DNA from: Planctomycetota bacterium
GTDB lineage: Bacteria; Planctomycetota; Planctomycetia; Gemmatales; Gemmataceae
Direction: 5' to 3'
DNA: 46,839 nucleotides
Assembly (NCBI GenBank): GCA_021807595.1
Contig: JAKBCS010000026.1
Span: 1 to 46,839 of the forward strand
Shown here: in pieces, positions 9,806 to 46,099 of the stretch
Numbering within the stretch: position 1 is the stretch's first letter
Layout of the letters: each line of letters opens with the position of its first letter
Notes under the pieces: generated by a model
Told to the model about the DNA's origin: nothing
Databases searched by the model: none
The model's input: only the letters and a program-made list of their open reading frames with translations
Position numbers and translations under genes: made by a program

Positions 9806-10006
9806 GCTCCTCCAGCCGTGGCTGGGGTTTTACTCGCGACGGGATTCAAGCGAGTGGACGATCGCGTCCGGGCGCGCCCCGTTTCGGGTTTGACGCCGAC
9901 CTGCGGCCCTTTCCATCAATCGTTTTTCATCGATTCCTTGTGTAGAGCGGGCGCTGGTCCTTTCAATCCAGTCGAAGCCAACGCGCGCTTTGAGGGAGAG
10001 GTTCCC

Positions 10007-11770
10007 ATGTCCGAACGCAATGTAGTTTCGCGCCCCAATGGTCTCGACATCATCCAAACGCCAAGCGACGAGGGAGGGCTTCGCGCCCCGCCGGAACTTG
10101 GGACCCTCGGCAAAGCGTGGTGGTGGTTTCATTTCCTCATCTTGGTCAAGCTGGCACGGCTGCGCTTCATCGCCGTCTTGCTCGCCATCGGTCTCGTCGT
10201 CGCCAAATGGGATTTGCTGTCTGCCTGGTATGACAAACTGACGCGGCCCGTCCTCGGTGGGGAAACCGCCGTCCATACGGATAGCGAATACTGGTGTCCG
10301 ATGCACCCGACCATCGTCCGCGAGCATCCGGATAAGTGCCCTCTCTGTGCCATGCCGCTATCGAAGCGCAAGAAGGGAGACAAGCAGGAGGGAGAGGCGT
10401 TGCCGCCCGGCGTCGTCAGTCGCGTGCAATTAACTCCCTACAAGGTGGCCGTCGCCGGTATCGCCACGGCACAAGTCGGCTATCGCGCGCTGACGCATAA
10501 CCTTCAGGCCGTCGGTCTCGTCGAGTTCGACGAAACGAAGCAAGCCCACATCGCCGCCCGCCAGAAGGGACGCATCGTCAAGCTGTTCGTCAACACCACC
10601 GGCCAGATGGTCGAGAAAGGCGAGAGGCTGGCCCTGGTCGATGTTCGCTATAGCTCGGAGTTGATGGTCACATTGGAGGATCTACAACGCGCCCGGAATC
10701 AAGGGAATCGAGCCTACGAGGACATAGCCCGCAAACGGCTGCGCATCTTCGATGTGGAGGAAACGCAGATAGACGATTTTTTGAAGACCGGCAAGCTGTC
10801 TACGGAAATGACCATCGTTTCGCCCATCCACGGCCACGTCATCAAGAAGTATCCTCGCGAAGGCAACTTCGTGGATGAAGGGACTCCGTTATACGATGTG
10901 GCCGACCTCTCCACCGTGTGGATCGAGGCTCAAGTCTACGAAAACGATTTGCCGTTTCTGAAGGACGCCGTGGAGAAGAGGCTGCCGGCCGTCGCCGTCG
11001 CCGAGGGCTTCCCCAACCGCGAATTCAAAGGCAAAATCGTTTTCGTTCATCCGCACTTGGATGCCGCCACGCGCACCCGGATGGTTCGCTTCAACATGGA
11101 CAACCCAGACCACGAATTGGCCCCCGGCGTTTGGGCGACGGCGCGGCTGGAAGTACCCATTACCCAAGCCGTGGCTCTGCCTCCCGATAGCTCGGCGGTT
11201 CAGAAGGAAAGATACCGGGCGGGCGAGGTTTTGAGCGTGCCGGAACGCGCGGTCATCGACACCGGAAACCACAAGTTCGTTTACCGCGAAGCCGAGCCGG
11301 ACGTTTACGAGGGACTTGAGGTGGAACTGGGACCGCGCTGCGGCGGCTACTATCCCGTGATCCGCGGCGTCAAGGAAGGCGAGCGCGTGGTGACGACGGG
11401 TTCGTTCCTCATCGACGCCGAGACCCGCCTCACGGCGGGCGCGAGTTCGATCTACTTCGGCGCGAGCGGCGGTCCTCATGCCGACCATTCGACGACGACG
11501 CCAGCGCGTCCTTCGATGGCGCGAGACGAGGATTCCAAAACGCGCGCGGGTTTGGCCAAGCTCAAACCCGTGGATCGACTTCTGGCCGAAAAACAACGGT
11601 CCTGCGCCGTCCTCCCCAAGAATCGCCTCGGCTCGATGGGCGCGCCCTTCGTCGTGGAAATCAAGGGCCGCAAAGTGTTTCTCTGTTGCGAAGGCTGCAA
11701 GGAAGATGCGTTGAAAGAGCCGGAGAAAACGCTCGCCCAGGTAGAAAAGCTGAAGCGAGAACGGAAGTAA
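10007..11770 (+). CDS. cusB: CusB-like RND periplasmic adaptor with two metal-binding domains
   Basis: The membrane-fusion subunit of a heavy-metal RND exporter, linking the inner-membrane pump to an outer-membrane channel. The ATG at 10007 follows AGGGAGAGG and gives 587 residues. In order: a cytoplasmic N-terminus, a membrane anchor (about residues 45-70, FLILVKLARLRFIAVLLAIG), a heavy-metal-binding domain (about 93-120, YWCPMHPTIVREH then CPLCAMPL), the barrel-sandwich/hairpin and beta-barrel regions (VVSPIHGHVIKKYPREGNFV; VWIEAQVYENDLPFLK), a membrane-proximal domain, and an extra C-terminal tail (about 525-587). The tail carries SCAVLPKNRLGSMGAP and VFLCCEGCKEDAL, a TRASH/YHS-like Cys cluster. 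Canonical CusB lacks that tail. It precedes cusA by 118 bp. Confidence 0.9.
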   Translation: MSERNVVSRPNGLDIIQTPSDEGGLRAPPELGTLGKAWWWFHFLILVKLARLRFIAVLLAIGLVVAKWDLLSAWYDKLTRPVLGGETAVHTDSEYWCPMHPTIVREHPDKCPLCAMPLSKRKKGDKQEGEALPPGVVSRVQLTPYKVAVAGIATAQVGYRALTHNLQAVGLVEFDETKQAHIAARQKGRIVKLFVNTTGQMVEKGERLALVDVRYSSELMVTLEDLQRARNQGNRAYEDIARKRLRIFDVEETQIDDFLKTGKLSTEMTIVSPIHGHVIKKYPREGNFVDEGTPLYDVADLSTVWIEAQVYENDLPFLKDAVEKRLPAVAVAEGFPNREFKGKIVFVHPHLDAATRTRMVRFNMDNPDHELAPGVWATARLEVPITQAVALPPDSSAVQKERYRAGEVLSVPERAVIDTGNHKFVYREAEPDVYEGLEVELGPRCGGYYPVIRGVKEGERVVTTGSFLIDAETRLTAGASSIYFGASGGPHADHSTTTPARPSMARDEDSKTRAGLAKLKPVDRLLAEKQRSCAVLPKNRLGSMGAPFVVEIKGRKVFLCCEGCKEDALKEPEKTLAQVEKLKRERK

Positions 11771-11888: not shown

Positions 11889-14800
11889 ATGATCGAAAAA
11901 ATAATCGAATGCTCGATACGCAATCGTTTCTTGGTCTTGGTCGCGGCGGCGGCGCTGGCAGCGTTTGCCGTCTATGCCGTTCTCGATACGCCGATGGATG
12001 CCACGCCGGATCTGAGCGAGAATCAGGTCATCGTCTTCACCGATTGGATGGGACGAAGTCCGCGCGAGATTGAGGATCAGATAACGTATCCTCTTTCTCT
12101 CAAATTACAGGGATTGGCCGGAGTCCGGGCGGTGCGCTCGTCGTCCGAGTTCAATTTCTCGATGATTACCCTGATTTTCGAGGATAAGCTCGACTTCTAT
12201 TTTACCCGTCAGCGCGTGTTGGAGCGATTGACGTTGGCGAGTACCTTCCTCCCGGAAGGCGTCGCTCCCTATCTCGCCGCCGATGCCACGGCGGTCGGGC
12301 AGGTCTTCTGGTACACCGTCGAAGGCGGCACCATGGAGCCGGGCCGCCGTTGGGCGCTTCAGAAATACTACATCGGCCCGGAGATCAATTCGGTACCCGG
12401 CGTGGCCGAGGTCGGTACCGTCGGCGGTTCGCCCCTGGAGTATCAGATCGATGTGAATCCCAATGCGCTCCGTGCCTACAACGTCACTCTCGGGGAATTG
12501 TACGAGGCCGTAAGCCGGAGCAACTCAGCCGTCGGCGGGAGTGTGGTGCAGAAGAACAACGCCGAGTATCTCATCCGCGGCGTCGGCTGGCTCGGCAGCC
12601 GCAAGGAGACTGAGGCCAACGCGAGTGAAACCGTCGAGAGTCGCGTACTCCGCGATCTCGAAGACACCGTGCTAACCGCGCGCGACGGCGTGCCCATCGC
12701 CATCAAAAACGTGGCCCGCGTCCAGGTGGGCGTCCAGTTTCGCCGGAGCGTATTTATCAAGGGCGGCAGCGAGATGGTCGGCGCGGTCGTTGTCATGCGC
12801 TACGGTGAGAATCCCTTGGCCGTCACCAATCGCGTCAAGCAGAAGATTCAGGAACTGCAACCGGGGCTGCCCTCCGGCGTTCACATCGTCCCGGCCTACG
12901 ACCGCACCCGCCTCATCCACGGCGCGATTCAAAACGTCGCAGAGGTCATGGGGCACGAAATGCTCATTGCCGCCGTGGCCATCCTGTTGATTCTCATGCA
13001 CGTCCGCAGTGTCTTCGTCATTTGCATCACCCTTCCGCTGTCGGTGCTGTTTTCGTTTTTGATGTTGTGGGTTCTGCGGGCGCTGCGCGTCGTCGATGTG
13101 CAGGCCAACATCATGTCGCTGGCAGGAATCACCATCTCCATCGGCATCCTCGTCGATCAGGCCATCGTCATGGTCGAGAATGCCACGCACGATTTGAAGG
13201 AGCATTTCGGCGATTCTCCGGTGACGGGCGACACCACGGAAATCATCGTCCGCGCCTGCCGCACCGTGGGCCGACCGATCTTCTTCTCCGTGCTGATTAT
13301 TTTGATCTCTTTTATCCCCGTATTTGCCATGAGCGGGCGCGAGGGCAAGTATTTCCATCCGATGGCCTTCACGAAAAGTCTGGCGATGGTTGGCGTTGCC
13401 TTCCTCTCCGTGACGGTGGTTCCGGCCCTGTTGCCGACGTTTCTACGCGGACGCCTCCGCAGTGAAGAGCAGAATCCGATCGTCCGCAGTTTCATCCGCA
13501 TCTATAAGCCGATGCTGACTTGGGCGCTGCCGCGCCGCAACCTCGTCGCGTGGATGTTCGCCGTGCTGCTCATCTTGGCCGTGGGCATGTTTCCGCTTCA
13601 GGCCGTTCTGGGGATCGGGGCATCGCATCGAGATTGGGAGATGTGTTTCTTCGTCGTACTGGCTGCGGTGATCTTCTTGACCGTGGTGTTCACGCGCGGC
13701 GGAGCGTGGCAGGTAGTCAGCTTCGCCACCCTGGTTTTGGTCGGTCTGATCGCCTATCGCTTTCCCAAGATCGGCGTCGAGTTCATGCCGCCTTTGAACG
13801 AACAGACAGTCATGGACATGCCCGTCACGGTGCCGCGCGCGAGTATCACAGAGGCCGCCGACGATCTGAAAGTCCGCGATGCGCTGTTGCGGCAATTTCC
13901 CGAAGTCGAGTCGGCGATCAACAAAGCCGGCCGGGCCGACACACCGACCGATCCCGCACCGCTGGAAATGGTGGAAACGTTCGTAAACTTTCGGCCCCGT
14001 GAGTTGTGGCCGCGCCGCGTTTTGGCTTTCGACGAGGCCGCGCGACAAGTTCGACTCGCTCTGGGATTCCTGGAAGAACGCGGCTCCATCCCTCGGGCCG
14101 ACGACGAGGAGCGCGACGCACTCGTGAACGATGCCACTATGGCGGCGCTGACCAAATTCGACGAGGCGATGCGCGAACTGGCGCTGCGGCGCTATCGAGA
14201 GATGGAGACCGAACTGGGACCGGCGTTGACGCGCTTTGTCGTCGAGGATTCGCTGCGCCGCTTCCGCGCCGCCGGTTTGCTCCAATGGCCCAACGATGCC
14301 GACGAGGGAGCGGTGACGGAGAAGCTGGTCGAAGAACTGGCTCCGCGCTACGGAATTTGGTTGTCGAAAAATCCGGCTCTGGAAGATGTCGCCAAGCTGA
14401 CGCAGTCGCTCGCCCAGCGTTTGCGCGAGCGCGGCGTTCTAACGACGACGGCTGCGGACGCACTGAAACTGCGACAATCGATGCCGCGGCGCATACTCGA
14501 CGCGATCGCCGAATCCCTCGGTTCCCAGGGCAAGACATTCGCCGGCGAAGTTTTCGCGGCTCTCCAGAAGCGTCGCCACGAATTGTGGATCGAGCGCATC
14601 CACAAAAGGATCAATTGGGAGCTGTTCGATCGCGGCGTCGAGACGTTCACTTGGGCGGCGGTGGAAGAGCTAGGCCGTGCCGCCAAGATCGGACGGGATC
14701 TGCGCGATGAATTCGCATCGCTCCGCGAACAATTGGAGAAACCGTTCGCCAAGGGGCTGATCTTATGGCAGCGCAAGGGCGGGACGAAGGGCGACCTGCT

Positions 14801-16202
14801 GCAAGAGATGGATGGCGTCGTGCAGATGCCGGGATGGAGCAATATCTGGACGCAGCCGATCATCAATCGGGTGGATATGCTCTCCACTGGAGTACGGACG
14901 CAGATCGGCGTCAAAGTGTTCGGTCCCGATCTGGACACCATCAACCGCGTCTGCAAGGAGGTCGAGCAAGCGATCAAACCGGTTCCCGGCGCGATGGATG
15001 TAATCGCCGAGCCGTTCATGGGCAAGGGCTATGTGGAGATCCACATCGACCGGCGCAAGGCGGCTCGCTTCGGCGTGCGCGTCGGCGATATTCAAGATAC
15101 CATTGAGGTTGCATTGGGCGGCAAGCTCATCACGCAGACGGTTGAAGGGCGCGATCGCTTCCCCGTGCGCGTCCGCTACGCCCGCGATTTCCGCGAAGAC
15201 GAGCAAGCGGTCAAGGCTCTGTTGGTGACGCGGGGCAACATGGGGAGTTTAGGTCGCGCCATGTCCGCTGGCCCGACCGCCAGCAGGGCGGAACCGGCGC
15301 GCGGATCGGACCAGGAACATCAGGCCGCCCCTTGGCACTCCGCCGACGGCAAGATTTCGCTGCAAATTCCTCTGGAGCAAGTGGCCGACGTTCACATCGT
15401 CGAGGGACCGGCCACGATTAAAAGCGAGAACGGTCGGCTGCGCAGCTACGTCACCCTCAATGTCCGCGGCGACCGCGATGTGGTCGGATTTGTCGAGGAG
15501 GCGCAGCGCGTCGTCGCCGAGAAAGTCGATTTGCCGGAGGGCGTTCATCTCGAATGGTCCGGCGAATTCGAGCATCAAGTGCGCGCCGCCAAGACGCTGC
15601 GCATCATCCTACCGATGGTGCTGATCCTCATTTTCCTCATTTTGTATCTGACATACAAGGATTTCGCCGATGCTTGCCTGATGATGTTGGCAGTGCCGGA
15701 GGCGTTGGCCGGGGGCGTCTTCTTCCAATTCCTTTTCCCCAAGATCGTCCACGGTTGGAGCAGTCCGCCTGAGCCGTTCAGCATGGGCATCTGGGTCGGC
15801 TACATCGCTGCTTTTGGCATGGCCACCGAAACCGGCATTATCATGCTGGTGTATCTCCGCGAAGCCATTGACAAACGCGGCGGCTTGGAGAATATCCAGT
15901 CGTTGGAGGAATTGCGGCAGACGGTGATCGAAGGCGCAGTGCATCGCTTGCGGCCCAAGCTGCTGACCGAAGGCGTGGCCATCGTTGCCATTGCGCCGAT
16001 GTTGTTTTCCACGGGCATCGGCGGTGAAATCATTTCGGCGATGGCGCTCCCCGTCTTGGGCGGCTTGCTCATTGCCGACGAGGTCGTCGATCTTTTCCTT
16101 CCCGTGCGTTTCTATTGGGTGCGCCGCGCTCGCTGGCTGAAAATCCACGAAAAACGAGTCGCCCAAGAGAGACTGGAGAAGGCAGTCGCTTTGTTGTCGT
16201 AG
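11889..16202 (+). CDS. cusA: CusA-like heavy-metal RND efflux pump with large insertion
   Basis: The inner-membrane, proton-driven pump of the Cus-type exporter (HME-RND family). It begins MIEKIIECSIRNRFLVL and keeps the porter region DATPDLSENQVIVFTDW and the TM4 proton-relay motif VDQAIVMVENA. Length is 1437 residues against about 1047 for E. coli CusA. Three expansions explain this: about 60 residues with two additional hydrophobic segments near 570-625; about 255 helical, charged residues near 705-970; and about 35 residues near 1118-1155. Methionines matching the CusA triad (M573, M623, M672) appear as Met643 (MDMPVTV), Met694 (EMVET) and Met997 (DMLSTGV), so metal transport, probably Cu/Ag, is likely. 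The two extra hydrophobic segments keep membrane parity. No CusC homologue adjoins it. Confidence 0.93.
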   Translation: MIEKIIECSIRNRFLVLVAAAALAAFAVYAVLDTPMDATPDLSENQVIVFTDWMGRSPREIEDQITYPLSLKLQGLAGVRAVRSSSEFNFSMITLIFEDKLDFYFTRQRVLERLTLASTFLPEGVAPYLAADATAVGQVFWYTVEGGTMEPGRRWALQKYYIGPEINSVPGVAEVGTVGGSPLEYQIDVNPNALRAYNVTLGELYEAVSRSNSAVGGSVVQKNNAEYLIRGVGWLGSRKETEANASETVESRVLRDLEDTVLTARDGVPIAIKNVARVQVGVQFRRSVFIKGGSEMVGAVVVMRYGENPLAVTNRVKQKIQELQPGLPSGVHIVPAYDRTRLIHGAIQNVAEVMGHEMLIAAVAILLILMHVRSVFVICITLPLSVLFSFLMLWVLRALRVVDVQANIMSLAGITISIGILVDQAIVMVENATHDLKEHFGDSPVTGDTTEIIVRACRTVGRPIFFSVLIILISFIPVFAMSGREGKYFHPMAFTKSLAMVGVAFLSVTVVPALLPTFLRGRLRSEEQNPIVRSFIRIYKPMLTWALPRRNLVAWMFAVLLILAVGMFPLQAVLGIGASHRDWEMCFFVVLAAVIFLTVVFTRGGAWQVVSFATLVLVGLIAYRFPKIGVEFMPPLNEQTVMDMPVTVPRASITEAADDLKVRDALLRQFPEVESAINKAGRADTPTDPAPLEMVETFVNFRPRELWPRRVLAFDEAARQVRLALGFLEERGSIPRADDEERDALVNDATMAALTKFDEAMRELALRRYREMETELGPALTRFVVEDSLRRFRAAGLLQWPNDADEGAVTEKLVEELAPRYGIWLSKNPALEDVAKLTQSLAQRLRERGVLTTTAADALKLRQSMPRRILDAIAESLGSQGKTFAGEVFAALQKRRHELWIERIHKRINWELFDRGVETFTWAAVEELGRAAKIGRDLRDEFASLREQLEKPFAKGLILWQRKGGTKGDLLQEMDGVVQMPGWSNIWTQPIINRVDMLSTGVRTQIGVKVFGPDLDTINRVCKEVEQAIKPVPGAMDVIAEPFMGKGYVEIHIDRRKAARFGVRVGDIQDTIEVALGGKLITQTVEGRDRFPVRVRYARDFREDEQAVKALLVTRGNMGSLGRAMSAGPTASRAEPARGSDQEHQAAPWHSADGKISLQIPLEQVADVHIVEGPATIKSENGRLRSYVTLNVRGDRDVVGFVEEAQRVVAEKVDLPEGVHLEWSGEFEHQVRAAKTLRIILPMVLILIFLILYLTYKDFADACLMMLAVPEALAGGVFFQFLFPKIVHGWSSPPEPFSMGIWVGYIAAFGMATETGIIMLVYLREAIDKRGGLENIQSLEELRQTVIEGAVHRLRPKLLTEGVAIVAIAPMLFSTGIGGEIISAMALPVLGGLLIADEVVDLFLPVRFYWVRRARWLKIHEKRVAQERLEKAVALLS

Positions 16203-40363: not shown

Positions 40364-41947
40364 TTAATGTGCGGCCAGCTCGCCTCCTTTGGCCACGGAA
40401 CGGCGCATCAAGAATACCAAGGGGATGACGAGCAGCGAAGCGAAGGCGAACAAGCGGAACATATCCAAGTAGGCCAATGTGAGGGCTTCGCGTTGCACCA
40501 TGCCGTACAATCGAGCCAAGCCCTGTTGCATCCCGCTCACGACATCGCCGGGGCCGCCTATGCCGCTCATTTGCTGGAGCATTGAGGTGGCTTGCGGATG
40601 CAACGGCGTGACGTGGCCCGCCATCCAAGTTTGATGGAACTGTGCGCGGCGTTGCAACAGCGTTGTCACCGCGGCCACGCCGATGCTGGAGCCTTCGTTG
40701 CGAATGAGGTTGAACAGCCCCGAAGCGTTATTGGTCTGCTCTCGGGGAATGTACAGATACGCCGCCGTGTTGATCGGCACCCACAGTAGCCCGGCACCCA
40801 ACGTCTGCACGATGCGCGGCCAAATGAGTTGCGAGGCGGAGACTTGAAGCGTCAATGTGGACATCCAGAACGACGCCGTGGCGACGACCATCAGTCCGGC
40901 CACGATGAGCCAACGGGCATCGACGCGGCGACCGAGTAGGATACCGATAATCGGCATCTCTAAAATCGTGAAAAAGCCCGCCGGGGACATGACCATCCCG
41001 GCCATCGTCGCCGAATAGCCCATCAGCGTCTGCAACATTTGCGGCAACAGCACCGTACTGCCGTACAGAACGCCGAACGCGCAGAAGATGACGATGGCGC
41101 AGAAAAGGAAATTGCGATCCTTGAGCAATCGTAGATTGAGAATCGGTTGAGGATGGAGCAGCTCCCAGACTATGGCGGACCCCAAGGAGACGACGGCGGT
41201 AATCGTAAGGGTGACGATGAACCGCGAGCCGAACCAATCTTCTTGCTGCCCCTTGTCGAAGACCACTTCGAGAGCGCCCAGGCCGAGAGCCAGCAGCCCC
41301 AGGCCGATGTAGTCGATCTGAAACGGCTTGCCGCGTAGAACGGCGCGCTGAGCCTTCAGGTACGGCGGATCTTCGACCACGATATTGCTCAAAAACAGCG
41401 AGAAACAGCCGACCGGGACGTTGATGTAGAAGATCCAGCGCCACGAATAGTTATCGGTGATCCAGCCGCCCAAGGTGGGGCCGAGAATGGGCGCGACGAG
41501 AATGGCCATGCCGTAGACGGCCATCGCCATGCCGCGCTTGGCGGGCGGGAAGGTATCGACGAGGATTGCTTGCTCGGACGGTTGCAACCCTCCGCCGCCA
41601 ATGCCCTGCAAGACGCGGAAGAAGACGAGTTGTCCCAACGTGGTAGCCATGCCGCACAGAGCCGAACTAAGGGTAAACAAGGCCACGCACATCATGTAGA
41701 AGCGCTTGCGCCCGAGCAGTGTGGACAGCCAGCCGGACAGCGGAAGGGCGATGGCATTGGCCACAAGATAGCTAGTCAGCACCCAAGTGCTTTCGTCTTC
41801 CGAGGCGGCCAAACTGCCGGAGATGTGCTTGAGGGCGACATTGGCGATGCTGGTATCCAACACTTCCATGAAGGTGGCCAACGTCACCGTCAGGGCAATG
41901 ACCCAAGGGTTGAATCGCGGGCCATCAAGCGAGCCGTCCGTTGCCAT
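40364..41947 (-). CDS. emrB: EmrB-type MFS multidrug exporter (DHA2, 14 TM)
   Basis: The inner-membrane proton-drug antiporter of an EmrAB-type tripartite pump. Its 527 residues with about 14 hydrophobic segments fit the DHA2 family. Signatures include the first helix FMEVLDTSIANVALKHISG, motif A-like LPLSGWLSTLLGRKRFYM, and motif C GMAILVAPILGPTLGGWITD. It lies directly downstream of emrA, 74 bp apart, with an inverted repeat in between, and presumably shares the emrA promoter and operator. Confidence 0.93.
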   Translation of the reverse strand: MATDGSLDGPRFNPWVIALTVTLATFMEVLDTSIANVALKHISGSLAASEDESTWVLTSYLVANAIALPLSGWLSTLLGRKRFYMMCVALFTLSSALCGMATTLGQLVFFRVLQGIGGGGLQPSEQAILVDTFPPAKRGMAMAVYGMAILVAPILGPTLGGWITDNYSWRWIFYINVPVGCFSLFLSNIVVEDPPYLKAQRAVLRGKPFQIDYIGLGLLALGLGALEVVFDKGQQEDWFGSRFIVTLTITAVVSLGSAIVWELLHPQPILNLRLLKDRNFLFCAIVIFCAFGVLYGSTVLLPQMLQTLMGYSATMAGMVMSPAGFFTILEMPIIGILLGRRVDARWLIVAGLMVVATASFWMSTLTLQVSASQLIWPRIVQTLGAGLLWVPINTAAYLYIPREQTNNASGLFNLIRNEGSSIGVAAVTTLLQRRAQFHQTWMAGHVTPLHPQATSMLQQMSGIGGPGDVVSGMQQGLARLYGMVQREALTLAYLDMFRLFAFASLLVIPLVFLMRRSVAKGGELAAH

Positions 41948-41967
41948 AACGCAGCTTCTCCTCTACC

Positions 41968-42040
41968 GGCGAACCGGCAGCCTAAGCTGCCGGGTACATT
42001 TCATGTTCGCCTACTCGGCAGCTAACGCTGCCGGTTCGCC
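41968..42040. repeat. Inverted repeat between emrA and emrB
   Basis: GGCGAACCGGCAGC (41968-41981) and GCTGCCGGTTCGCC (42027-42040) are perfect 14-bp complements. Each half also contains a small palindrome (GGCAGCCTAAGCTGCC; CGGCAGCTAACGCTGCCG). The right half supplies the last residues and the stop codon of emrA. Confidence 0.75.
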
Positions 42041-43581
42041 GGGCTGTTGGGCGCGGCACCCAGCAGACGCTTGCCGGCGTCTTTCCCAGTCGGAGGAGCC
42101 TTGATATTCACTTCGGGTACCACCGACAGACCGACGAACAGTGGTGTCTCCTCCGGCGGCGGCTCGGTCAATTCGATCCGCACCGGCAGACGTTGCACCA
42201 CTTTGACGAAATTGCCTGTGGCGTTCTCCGGCGGCAGCAGCGACAGCGCCGCTCCGGTTCCGGGACTGAAGCCGGCGACGCGACCGCGAAAGACACGTCC
42301 CGGATAGGCGTCGACGGAAATATCCACGGATTGCCCGATGCAAAGGCGATCGAGTTGGTTTTCCTTGAAATTCGCCTCGACCCAGACGGCGTACAGCGGA
42401 CGCAAGGCCATTAGCATCTGACCGGCCTGCACTTGGTTTCCGGGGTTGACGGAACGGCGATTGACGTAACCGGAGAGGGGCGACTTGAGTACGGTGTAGC
42501 TGAGATTCAACTCGGCTTGCTCCAAATCCTTCTGGGCGTGGACGACGCTGGGATGTTCGTAGGGAGAAGACGGATTGAAGGCCGATCCGCCCAGCGCAGC
42601 ACGCTCTTGCCGCACCCGCGCCTGTGCCGAGCGCACCGCCGGCACCCTTTCCATCAATGAGGTTACGTTGAGCCGGTCGAACTCCGGCAGAATGGAGGCG
42701 GTGCGCATATTGAGCAGATTGAGGGGCACGCCGAGCTGTGCCAGCGTTTGCTGCGCGGTGGACAGCGCGTACCGAACGCCGGGATAGTTCTCCACCAAGT
42801 CCGCCTTCACCGATTCGCTTTCGTCGGCGGAGATGCCGAGGAGCGCCTGAGTCTGTTTCACCGAAGCGCGCGCGGCGTTCAGTTGCTCCTCGGCGACGCG
42901 CAGGGCGGCGTTCTTCTGATCGGACATCTCTTTGCTGACGGCACCGCGCGGCATCAGGTCGGCATAGCGGCTTTGCTCGGTTTGCGCTAGTGCCAGATTG
43001 GCCTTTTGCAGATTCTCACTGGCCCGATTGGCGCGCAGATTGGCCTCTTGATAGCGCACGAGATTCTGGATCGTCCGCAACAGATACCAGCTACCCCACA
43101 GACCTGCCACCTGGGAGCGCACCTGATTGCGCGCCTGTTCCAGGTCGGCTTCGGCGGCTTGGAGGGACGCGAGTTGCCGGTCTATTTGCAACTTGGCGTT
43201 GGCCAGCGAAGCTCGGCGCTGTTCGACAACGATGCGATACGGTTCGTCGTCGAGGCGCGCGAGAACCGTTCCCGGCTCGACGAACTGGTTGTCGTCCACC
43301 AACACTTCGACGACATTACCGGACACGCGCGGACTGATATAGCTAACGTGGCTGTTGACGTAGGCATCGTCGGTAGACTCGTGCGTGAAAGAATGCGCAA
43401 TCCAGGGAACTCCGAAATAGCCGGCCGATCCCAAGCCCACCGCGCCGACCAACGACAGAATCAACCACCGGCGTCGTTTGGCGGGAGACGCGGGGGGACT
43501 GGGTGAAGGAGGGAGATTGGCGTCGCGTAAAACGGGGAGGATTTCGGTAGATGAAGAAGATCCGTGCGGCTCTTGGGACAT
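42022..43581 (-). CDS. emrA: EmrA/HlyD-type membrane-fusion protein
   Basis: The periplasmic adaptor of the EmrAB pump, connecting EmrB to an outer-membrane factor. Start at ATG 43581 with GGAGGG 8 nt upstream, giving 519 residues; the frame is open to 43665 but that part overlaps the operator. Layout: a Pro/Ser-rich cytoplasmic tail, one transmembrane helix (about 44-65, WLILSLVGAVGLGSAGYFGV), the first biotinyl-lipoyl half (YISPRVSGNVVEVLVDDNQF), a long coiled-coil hairpin (about 115-360), the second lipoyl half (LKSPLSGYVNRRSVNPGNQV) and a beta-barrel. It is somewhat longer than E. coli EmrA (390), mainly in the hairpin. The C-terminal ANRQR comes from a repeat. Confidence 0.92.
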   Translation of the reverse strand: MSQEPHGSSSSTEILPVLRDANLPPSPSPPASPAKRRRWLILSLVGAVGLGSAGYFGVPWIAHSFTHESTDDAYVNSHVSYISPRVSGNVVEVLVDDNQFVEPGTVLARLDDEPYRIVVEQRRASLANAKLQIDRQLASLQAAEADLEQARNQVRSQVAGLWGSWYLLRTIQNLVRYQEANLRANRASENLQKANLALAQTEQSRYADLMPRGAVSKEMSDQKNAALRVAEEQLNAARASVKQTQALLGISADESESVKADLVENYPGVRYALSTAQQTLAQLGVPLNLLNMRTASILPEFDRLNVTSLMERVPAVRSAQARVRQERAALGGSAFNPSSPYEHPSVVHAQKDLEQAELNLSYTVLKSPLSGYVNRRSVNPGNQVQAGQMLMALRPLYAVWVEANFKENQLDRLCIGQSVDISVDAYPGRVFRGRVAGFSPGTGAALSLLPPENATGNFVKVVQRLPVRIELTEPPPEETPLFVGLSVVPEVNIKAPPTGKDAGKRLLGAAPNSPANRQR

Positions 43582-43622
43582 TTCCGCGGCCCTCCGTATA
43601 GAGGCAACAGGCTTTCGATACA

Positions 43623-43642
43623 AACTGACTGACCAGTCAGTT
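43623..43642. promoter_or_regulatory. TetR-type operator at the emrAB promoter
   Basis: AACTGACTG and CAGTCAGTT form a perfect 9-bp inverted repeat with 2 central bases, the typical size and symmetry of TetR/AcrR operators, with the TGACCAGTCA-like core common in this family. It lies immediately downstream of the emrA minus-10 region, so bound repressor would block transcription. The adjacent divergent TetR gene is the likely ligand-responsive regulator. Confidence 0.75.
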
Positions 43643-43643
43643 C

Positions 43644-43672
43644 TGTTTATCGGATTGCGGCTCAATCGTCAA
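43644..43672 (-). promoter_or_regulatory. Candidate emrAB promoter
   Basis: On the minus strand TTGACG (43672-43667) is followed after 17 nt by TAAACA (43649-43644), a weak minus-10 box. The operator at 43623-43642 covers the predicted transcript start. Confidence 0.45.
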
Positions 43673-43790
43673 TACAGAATAAATCTTTAGAAAGATCGGC
43701 AAATTCTGACTTGTGGATGGTCGATAAGAATGGTACGATACTCGCAAGTCATTTATTATGTCGGGGTCAACCCCCCGTGAGGAGGAGGCC

Positions 43791-44357
43791 ATGCGAATAG
43801 CGGACCCGACCCGCGCGCAGCGCATTCTGGATGCTGCCGCTCGACTGTTTGGCCAGCATCACTATCACGAGGTTCGCATCGAAGATGTCGCCGCCAAGGC
43901 CGGCGTGTCCAAGGGGGCGGTCTATCAACATTTTAAGGACAAAGAAGACCTATATGTTGCGCTTATCCTGCACGGCCTCAATCGCCTCTACGACCGGACG
44001 CGCGCGAAGATTGCGGATTTGACCGAGCCGGAAGAACGACTCTTGAGCGTGGTCCGCGAAGGCGTACAGTTCTTCCTCGCGCAGCCGTACTTTCTCGAAT
44101 TGATCCAACGCGTTGATATCTCACATTCCGCCGCACACAGCACCGCGCTCGACGCCAGCCACACCCGCTTTCTGGACATGCTGGTGGAGATCCTCGAACA
44201 ACTGAACGGCTCGAACCGTTGGCGCGCCGACGATCCGGAACTCGCCGCTCTCGCCCTGATGGGCACGATGCGTGAAACCCTGCGCTGGCGCGGCCACATG
44301 ACCGAGGGACTACCCGAACTAATTGTCCATCAGTTCCTCAATGGATTAAGAAAGTAG
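43791..44357 (+). CDS. TetR/AcrR-family repressor of the efflux locus
   Basis: A 188-residue transcription regulator. The N-terminal DNA-binding domain is typical: AQRILDAAARLFGQHHYHEV, then the helix-turn-helix IEDVAAKAGVSKGAVYQHFKDKEDLY. The C-terminal helical part would bind the inducer. The ATG at 43791 has GGAGG 5 nt upstream and is preferred to the ATG at 43758. It is divergent from emrA and is followed by an outer-membrane factor gene, so it likely represses both sides through the palindrome at 43623-43642. TACGAT near 43735-43740 may be its own minus-10 box. Confidence 0.92.
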   Translation: MRIADPTRAQRILDAAARLFGQHHYHEVRIEDVAAKAGVSKGAVYQHFKDKEDLYVALILHGLNRLYDRTRAKIADLTEPEERLLSVVREGVQFFLAQPYFLELIQRVDISHSAAHSTALDASHTRFLDMLVEILEQLNGSNRWRADDPELAALALMGTMRETLRWRGHMTEGLPELIVHQFLNGLRK

Positions 44358-44440
44358 CTCTCCGCTATCGGCCAGACACCGCGAGAATAAGAGAACTACC
44401 GTGGTCGAGGCGTATAGATCCGGGGTCAGCTATCGCTGGC

Positions 44441-44461
44441 TGATAGCGGATAGCAGATAGC
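44441..44461. repeat. Tandem heptamers (GATAGC type)
   Basis: Three 7-nt units TGATAGC, GGATAGC, AGATAGC occupy 44441-44461, ending 15 bases before the outer-membrane factor ATG. They are related to the heptamers at 22765-22785. Confidence 0.6.
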
Positions 44462-44476
44462 CGAGTGGAGGTAAGC

Positions 44477-46099
44477 ATGGATGTTTCATGGTTGCACGGA
44501 TTTGGCCGCCGACGACGGATGGCGAGCGTGCTGTTGGTGGTGTTGGCGTGCGGATGCACCACGCTGGGCGAGTACGTTCACAACGGTTTCAAGGTTGGGC
44601 CGAACTATTCGCCGCCTCCCGCGCCCACATCTCCAACTTGGATCGACGCCGCAGACCCGCGCGTCCGCTCCGATGCTTCGGCCGTTGGCGCGTGGTGGAA
44701 GGTCTTCGGCGATCCCATTCTCGATTCGCTGATCCAAACGGCCTACGAGCGGAACCTGGATTTTAAGACGGCCGGTACGCGCGTCCTCGACTCCTTGGCC
44801 CAGCGAAACATCGCCGCCGGCAACCTGATGCCTCAATCGCAAACTGCCGTCGCCGCGTTCGCACACGGCCAGCTCAGCCAGAACTTCGGCCTGCCCTTTC
44901 CCAACGTCTTCAATCTCTGGGCCAGCGGCTTCAACGCCTCGTGGGAACTCGATTTCGCCGGTCGTCTCCGCCGCACCATCGAAGCGGCCAACGGCGAGTT
45001 AAACGCCTCGGTCGAAGACGCCCACAATGTTCTCGTCATTCTCTTGGCCGAGACGGCGAGCAATTATGTCAGGTTGCGCACCTTCCAACAGCGATTGGCC
45101 TATGCTCGGCAAAATGTCGAGATACAAAAGAAGACTTTGAAGCTCGCGGAAGATCGTTTTAAGGGCGGGGTTTCGCAAATCGACGACTTCACCCAAACCC
45201 GCGCCAATTTAGCCCAAACGGAGGCGTTGATCCAGCCGCTCGAAATCGGCCTGCGCCAGGCCAACAATCAATTGTGCGTTCTGCTCGGCATGCCGCCCCA
45301 TCAATTGGAAGCGAGCTTGAATGCCGCGCCGATCCCGACGCCCCCGGCGGAAGCAACCGTCGGCGTACCCGCCGACCTGTTGCGCCGCCGTCCGGACGTT
45401 CGCCAGGCCGAGCGCAAGGTGGCCGCCCAAGCCGCGCGCATCGGCATCGCCGAGGCCGACCTGTATCCGCGCTTCGTGCTGTTTGGCTTCATCGGCTACA
45501 CGGCGGATACTTTCGCCAAAGTGTTCGACGCCAGCAGCTACACGGGCTTCGTCGCGCCGATCTTTCAATGGAACATCCTCAACTACGGCCGTCTGTTGAA
45601 CAATATCCGCGCCCAACGCGCCCGCTTTCAGGGCGACGTTTTCACCTACCAACAAACCGTGTTGAAGGCCGACCGTGAGGCGGAAGATGCCCTCGTCGCC
45701 TTTCTGCGAACTCAGGATCAAGCCCGTCACTTGGCCGTCAGCGCCGACAACCTCAAGCGCACGGCGGAAATCGTGATGCTTCAAGAAACCAAGGGCAAAA
45801 TCGACTTTAATCGCGTCTACACCACCCAAGCCGCATTGGTGGTCCAACAAGATCAATTGGCCGAAGTGCGCGGCAACATCGCCCTCAATCTGATCGCTCT
45901 CTATCGCGCGCTCGGCGGCGGCTGGGATGTGTCGTTCGCCGCCGACGACGCGAATTGCGCCAGAACAACCCAACATCGTGAAGGCGAAGCGCCTTGGGAC
46001 AACGGCGAAGGAGTGCCGTTGCCGCGCCCTCGCCCCAATTCCGCATCTGAAAAGGAGACGACCAAGGAACGCCGCCCCCTCCAAAAGGATGCGAAGTAG
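44477..46099 (+). CDS. OprM/NodT-type outer-membrane efflux lipoprotein
   Basis: The outer-membrane channel of the tripartite drug pump, 540 residues. The ATG at 44477 has GGAGGT 4-6 nt upstream. A lipoprotein signal (RMASVLLVVLACGCTTLG) leads to the family start FKVGPNYSPPPAP and two OEP repeats (about 70-260 and 280-475), including WELDFAGRLRRTIEAANGEL, RRRPDVRQAERKVAAQAARI and DLYPRFVLFGFIGYTAD. About 40 charged residues extend the C-terminus (GVPLPRPRPNSASEKETT). Its position after the TetR gene, and the neighbouring emrAB, argue that the three form one exporter. Confidence 0.93.
   Translation: MDVSWLHGFGRRRRMASVLLVVLACGCTTLGEYVHNGFKVGPNYSPPPAPTSPTWIDAADPRVRSDASAVGAWWKVFGDPILDSLIQTAYERNLDFKTAGTRVLDSLAQRNIAAGNLMPQSQTAVAAFAHGQLSQNFGLPFPNVFNLWASGFNASWELDFAGRLRRTIEAANGELNASVEDAHNVLVILLAETASNYVRLRTFQQRLAYARQNVEIQKKTLKLAEDRFKGGVSQIDDFTQTRANLAQTEALIQPLEIGLRQANNQLCVLLGMPPHQLEASLNAAPIPTPPAEATVGVPADLLRRRPDVRQAERKVAAQAARIGIAEADLYPRFVLFGFIGYTADTFAKVFDASSYTGFVAPIFQWNILNYGRLLNNIRAQRARFQGDVFTYQQTVLKADREAEDALVAFLRTQDQARHLAVSADNLKRTAEIVMLQETKGKIDFNRVYTTQAALVVQQDQLAEVRGNIALNLIALYRALGGGWDVSFAADDANCARTTQHREGEAPWDNGEGVPLPRPRPNSASEKETTKERRPLQKDAK

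Follow-up and report, generated by a model that had tools for sequence, protein, structure and literature searches.

CusA is the reference pump for the selection and movement of Cu(I) and Ag(I) by RND transporters. The window analysed here, a stretch of 46,839 nucleotides from a planctomycete contig, carries a cusA-type gene (11889..16202, +) whose product holds a large extra block between two of its metal ligands. This raises the question of whether the block is a genuine domain, where in the pump it lies, how widely it is distributed and what it may contribute to metal export.

A CusA-type pump with an intact methionine triad

The 1437-residue product of this open reading frame is a CusA/CzcA-family (HME-RND) permease. 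It scores 877.7 bits against TIGR00914 (CusA/CzcA; cut-off 701.45), is matched by PF00873 in three pieces and aligns to CusA over both of its halves, with the duplicated RND layout of six TM helices plus a periplasmic loop. A phmmer comparison with solved CusA split the match into Q1-563, Q619-708, Q962-1112 and Q1158-1415, and residues were mapped onto the E. coli K-12 cusA gene (NC_000913).

With E. coli CusA (PDB 3k07, 7kf5-7kf8; CusCFBA) the window pump shares the HME-RND family, the Met triad with E625, and D405, E939 and K984 of the proton relay. By alignment, M573 corresponds to M644 (13818..13820, +; invariant in the alignment of relatives, A3), M623 and E625 to M694 and E696 (13968..13976, +), and M672 to M997 (14877..14879, +), the last being anchored by NRVDMLSTG in the window protein and NRIDMLSTG in CusA. 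The sequence-only reading had placed the triad at 643, 694 and 997, with intervals of 51 and about 303 residues, the latter against 49 in E. coli; its second and third methionines and its second interval (303) stand, whereas the first methionine was off by one and the first interval is 50 in both proteins. A different location of the third methionine was considered and rejected: both flanks of the extra block are unambiguous and strongly conserved, leaving no other credible place for it. The proton relay is kept as D423, E1314 and K1357, and in the subfamily of the window pump the triad, E625, D405, E939 and K984 are each conserved in 57 of 57 sequences, or in 56 of 57 with one gap.

The methionine relay of E. 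coli CusA (M391-M1009, M403-M486, M410-M501 and M271-M755) is incomplete in the window pump, which keeps M391, M410 and M486 and differs from CusA in several replaced relay positions (M403L, M501L, M1009I, M271F and M755L). Because of this incomplete relay, we file the protein as an HME-RND pump with a Cu/Ag triad and not as a relay pump of the E. coli type; its Cu(I)/Ag(I) specificity is what we infer from the Met triad alone.

A predicted all-helical domain within PC1

The extra residues form an inserted domain of 254 amino acids (residues 708-961; 14010..14771, +), so that the roughly 255 residues (about 705-970) of the sequence-only reading are real. The insert falls exactly between W636 and R637 of E. 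coli CusA: the upstream phmmer match (60 bits) ends at Q708 and the downstream match (121 bits) restarts at Q962, which aligns with R637. These two residues lie after strand beta3, which carries M623 and E625, and before helix alpha2, which leads to M672; sequence together with established knowledge of the fold thus assigns the insertion to the beta3-alpha2 loop of porter subdomain PC1.

The insert is charged and, by prediction, helical and has no membrane segment, as had been described from the sequence: its charges are balanced (42 K+R versus 43 D+E), and in a 19-residue window its hydropathy reaches a maximum of 0.68, with no membrane segment detected by this measure. AlphaFold2, run with 48 homologues, predicts an all-helical domain (pLDDT 90.6, pTM 0.84), which has two short paired strands at its base (710-712 and 959-961) and contains two long helices, one of 56 residues (739-794; 14103..14270, +) and one of 48 residues (884-931; 14538..14681, +), the second including the conserved NWELFD motif (909-914). 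Conserved columns are mostly W, R, D, E and L and are of a structural kind. The insert matched nothing in Pfam, NCBIfam or PDB sequences, Foldseek searches of the PDB and BFVD returned best E-values of 0.24 and 0.14, neither convincing, and the best VIA-align hit had a Z-score of 6.2 at an rmsd of 6.8. A known fold was therefore rejected as an assignment, the Foldseek and VIA-align hits being common helical arrangements only, which does not thereby prove a new fold.

An AlphaFold2 model of residues 515-1437 reproduced the insert helices, with PC1 poorly predicted (pTM 0.51); because the model failed on PC1, the orientation of the insert was taken from the ferredoxin-like topology. In this fold, beta1 leaves TM7 upward and beta3 runs downward. 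This topology would turn the beta3-alpha2 loop towards that rim of the PC1/PC2 cleft which lies near the membrane.

The same model contains two further predicted TM helices (about 580-601 and 605-623) between TM7 and PC1. This hairpin (about residues 580-623; 13626..13757, +), identified by hydropathy, AlphaFold2 and length comparison, was not mentioned in the earlier reading; it has no counterpart in E. coli CusA, from which the window pump thus differs by about 57 extra residues before PC1 as well as by the PC1 insert. Within the clade the hairpin is patchy, with 0, +43 to +69 or +127 to +194 residues at this point. Separately, the second periplasmic half contains about 37 extra low-complexity residues (15225-15359; SLGRAMSAGPTASRAEPARGSDQEHQAAPWH), a stretch of variable length among relatives.

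Distribution, constraint and origin of the insert

About 100 relatives carry the insert in frame, and the long pump form occurs in genomes of the same genus, family and class. An insert profile matched 101 of 298 genomes in the class sample and 18 of 294 in the phylum sample, the window genome being counted in both. When 84,980 species genomes were scanned with a sequence pattern, 60 loci were recovered, all but two of them labelled as planctomycetes; of the two labelled 'bacterium', L140 corresponds to G039, a genome belonging to the class of the window pump, and L139 is placed by its label alone. The insert was not found in IMG/VR contigs, nor by tblastn on 72,556 plasmids, of which at least 5000 carry a CusA relative. 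In these searches the insert was seen in Planctomycetota only, its absence outside the phylum being drawn from the pattern scan (84,980 species) and the plasmid tblastn. The sequence-only reading implied that ordinary HME-RND pumps lack the insert, and it is indeed missing from E. coli CusA, from pumps of other phyla and from the ordinary-length CusA paralogues in the window's own genome (contigs C77 and C250). No description of this insert was found in the open-access literature searched.

The insert is under purifying selection, though looser than that on the core: its dN/dS is 0.13-0.22 versus 0.06-0.11, an insert/core ratio of about 1.3-2.7. A frameshift or assembly artefact was rejected, since the frame is open in relatives of many genera and is constrained by selection. 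In core trees, pumps with 135-371 extra residues at the PC1 site form one clade (support 0.949 and 0.844), and members of the sister clade (L046-L049) have between 0 and 42 additional residues at that point. This points to one gain, after which the insert was both lengthened and trimmed; the core tree showed no insert-less reversion inside the insert-bearing clade. Mini-inserts of 135-210 residues align with the insert profile at its ends only, and the base of the domain is therefore conserved and its middle dispensable.

The sister pumps L046-L049 are planctomycete CusA-like proteins that form the nearest clade and keep the Met triad as in the window pump. Three of the four have an extension of 40-42 residues at the same PC1 site without the helical domain. 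They also carry a bigger TM-region insertion (+94 to +129; between TM6 and PC1 in L046-L048) and, unlike the window pump, have E939 replaced by D and K984 by C.

Within the insert-bearing clade, a sister subfamily (B) of 22 sequences includes a paralogue in the window genome (L041, 3626-7996; contig G000:C20). Nearly all its members have a poly-His loop (HHH/HHHH) just before the last helix of the insert, and the inserts of L041, L042 and L044 additionally contain an HFGMDM...HQHIMRTP loop. The TM10 proton-relay acid E939 is replaced by S or A in 21 of the 22, and D405 and, where sequenced, K984 are kept. This poly-His loop, near the C-terminal end of the insert, suggests that the domain lies on a metal route.

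Individual relatives show other peculiarities. Two strongly hydrophobic, TM-like segments occur in the middle of the insert of L037 (6040-7059), and one such segment, at the threshold used, in L038 (5533-6555), which belongs to the same sub-lineage; an insert can therefore reach the membrane, an independent hint at the membrane-near orientation of the loop. The CusA frames of L158 (1367-7672) and L050 (2462-7030) open far upstream, giving 2102 and 1523 residues; an adaptor-pump fusion was rejected for both, as no HlyD domain lies in frame, and the extensions are probably open frames in high-GC DNA.

The CusB adaptor and the gene neighbourhood

As in E. coli Cus, a cusB-type adaptor gene (9818..11770, +; HlyD_D23 6e-55; likely start ATG at 10004) lies directly upstream of cusA, with a gap of -13 to the CusA frame, and this arrangement holds at nearly all insert-pump loci with enough flank. 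The adaptor differs from that of the E. coli system in its two ends: an N-terminal heavy-metal-binding domain (HMBD; 10289..10357, +; PF19335 1.8e-8) and a C-terminal CCEGC motif (11684..11698, +), the latter recognized as a motif only, YHS-like by eye and with no Pfam match. The HMBD is found in 60 of 66 full adaptors of insert pumps versus 1 of 19 beside other planctomycete HME pumps, and the C-terminal CxGC in 69 of 98 versus 0 of 21, counts that come from related, non-independent sequences, so that Fisher p-values overstate the contrast, and that include many 'ordinary' control pumps not of the Cu/Ag type (9 of 17 have E at the M672 position). Common ancestry or the type of metal handled may account for the association.

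The window cluster contains no clearly recognizable cusF, and only two weak CusF-like matches (36-42 bits) occur among relatives (L104 and L107). Among the neighbours looked at, CusB alone recurs at insert-pump loci, with no conserved extra partner gene identified. The TolC-type match nearest to the pump within the window (44465-46099) is separated from it by about 28 kb and belongs to another cluster. That cluster (40364-46099), judged by eye to be of the EmrAB type, comprises an MFS transporter, a HlyD-like adaptor and a TolC-like outer-membrane factor, and is apparently unrelated to the cus genes.

What the inserted domain may do

In E. coli CusBA, the N- and C-termini of CusB contact the PC1/PC2 cleft (PMC6975555), and in CusA the cleft opens and the triad forms when PC2 swings away from PC1 (PMC8092243). 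Taken with the position of the insert and the partner data, these observations lend plausibility to a role at this cleft and in concert with CusB, where the sequence-only reading had placed the block as a possible gating module. As the likeliest of the roles considered, at somewhat less than even odds, we tentatively propose that the insert is a docking and gating arm at the cleft that receives metal from the ends of CusB. Under such a model, PC1 of a proton-driven Cu(I)/Ag(I) exporter would have gained the all-helical domain once, in the ancestry of a planctomycete clade, and the domain would occupy the outer rim of the cleft, close to the membrane. The metal-binding ends of CusB (the HMBD at the N-terminus and CCxGC at the C-terminus) would dock onto this arm and hand their metal over to the Met triad. 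Since the domain is built in between the ligand elements, docking could be linked to the opening of the cleft. Against the model stand the faster evolution of the insert compared with the core, the loss of its middle in the mini-inserts, and the chance that ancestry or metal type explains the pairing with CusB.

The main rival is a purely structural arm, whose long helices would brace the trimer, the adaptor ring or, with the TM hairpin, the membrane, without direct metal delivery; we regard it as rather unlikely, if a serious contender. The great length of the two helices speaks for it, as do the structural character of the conserved columns, with no Cys, His or Met ligands, the membrane reach shown by the hydrophobic segments in L037 and L038, and the extra hairpin next to PC1 in many members. 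However, L043, L155 and L185 keep the insert without the hairpin, so that the two are not obligately linked, and the poly-His loop found in subfamily B points to a location connected with metal. It is improbable that the domain is instead a docking site for another planctomycete periplasmic protein, for example a copper chaperone in place of CusF: the missing cusF and the weakness of the CusF-like matches would fit such a partner, but the neighbours, surveyed unsystematically, offer only CusB as a recurrent one. Slightly more improbable still is a lineage-specific decoration of little function, which would be in keeping with the variable insert length (135-371 residues) and the elevated dN/dS, but at odds with the constraint that this dN/dS still implies, the conserved insert ends, the occurrence in about a third of the class genomes (101 of 298) and the lack of reversion within the clade.

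A built-in metal-binding or chaperone module, the stronger form of the metallochaperone-interaction module suggested from the sequence, is very improbable for the window protein and was rejected: although the insert sits between two metal ligands and subfamily B has its His-rich loops, the window insert has no Cys, and none of its 2 His and 4 Met residues is strongly conserved in its subfamily; it is therefore not itself a metallochaperone, so that inserts of this subfamily probably bind no metal through conserved Cys, His or Met.

Significance for RND pumps and planctomycete metal export

Insertions into RND porter modules have been described before: funnel domains and the helical inserts of NPC1, PTCH1 and hopanoid transporters, all at beta2-beta3, further insertions at beta1-alpha1, and the P1 head of SecDF after alpha2, PC1 itself being termed a 'continuous fold' (PMC8277102). 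Like these cases, some of which are helical too, the window pump has a large domain built into a porter module of ferredoxin-like fold; it differs from them in its insertion point, beta3-alpha2 of PC1, which is not among the hotspots or sites in that work (PMC8277102). It thereby adds one insertion site to the known decorations of the RND porter module.

Taken together, the window protein is an HME-RND pump whose ligands are of the Cu/Ag type and whose PC1 carries a conserved domain, predicted to be helical and without a recognized fold match. A broader reading, which we consider unlikely in its entirety, sees in these proteins a separate class of RND metal pump that arose in the Planctomycetota. 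Its novel helical domain between the ligands, at a previously unlisted porter site, would dock the metal-loaded ends of CusB, gate entry and replace a CusF-like chaperone, with one branch having added a His-rich loop and altered its proton relay. A conserved, phylum-restricted domain beside the triad, paired with an adaptor that has metal-binding ends, would offer a natural system for the hand-over of metal from adaptor or chaperone to pump and for the gating of the cleft.
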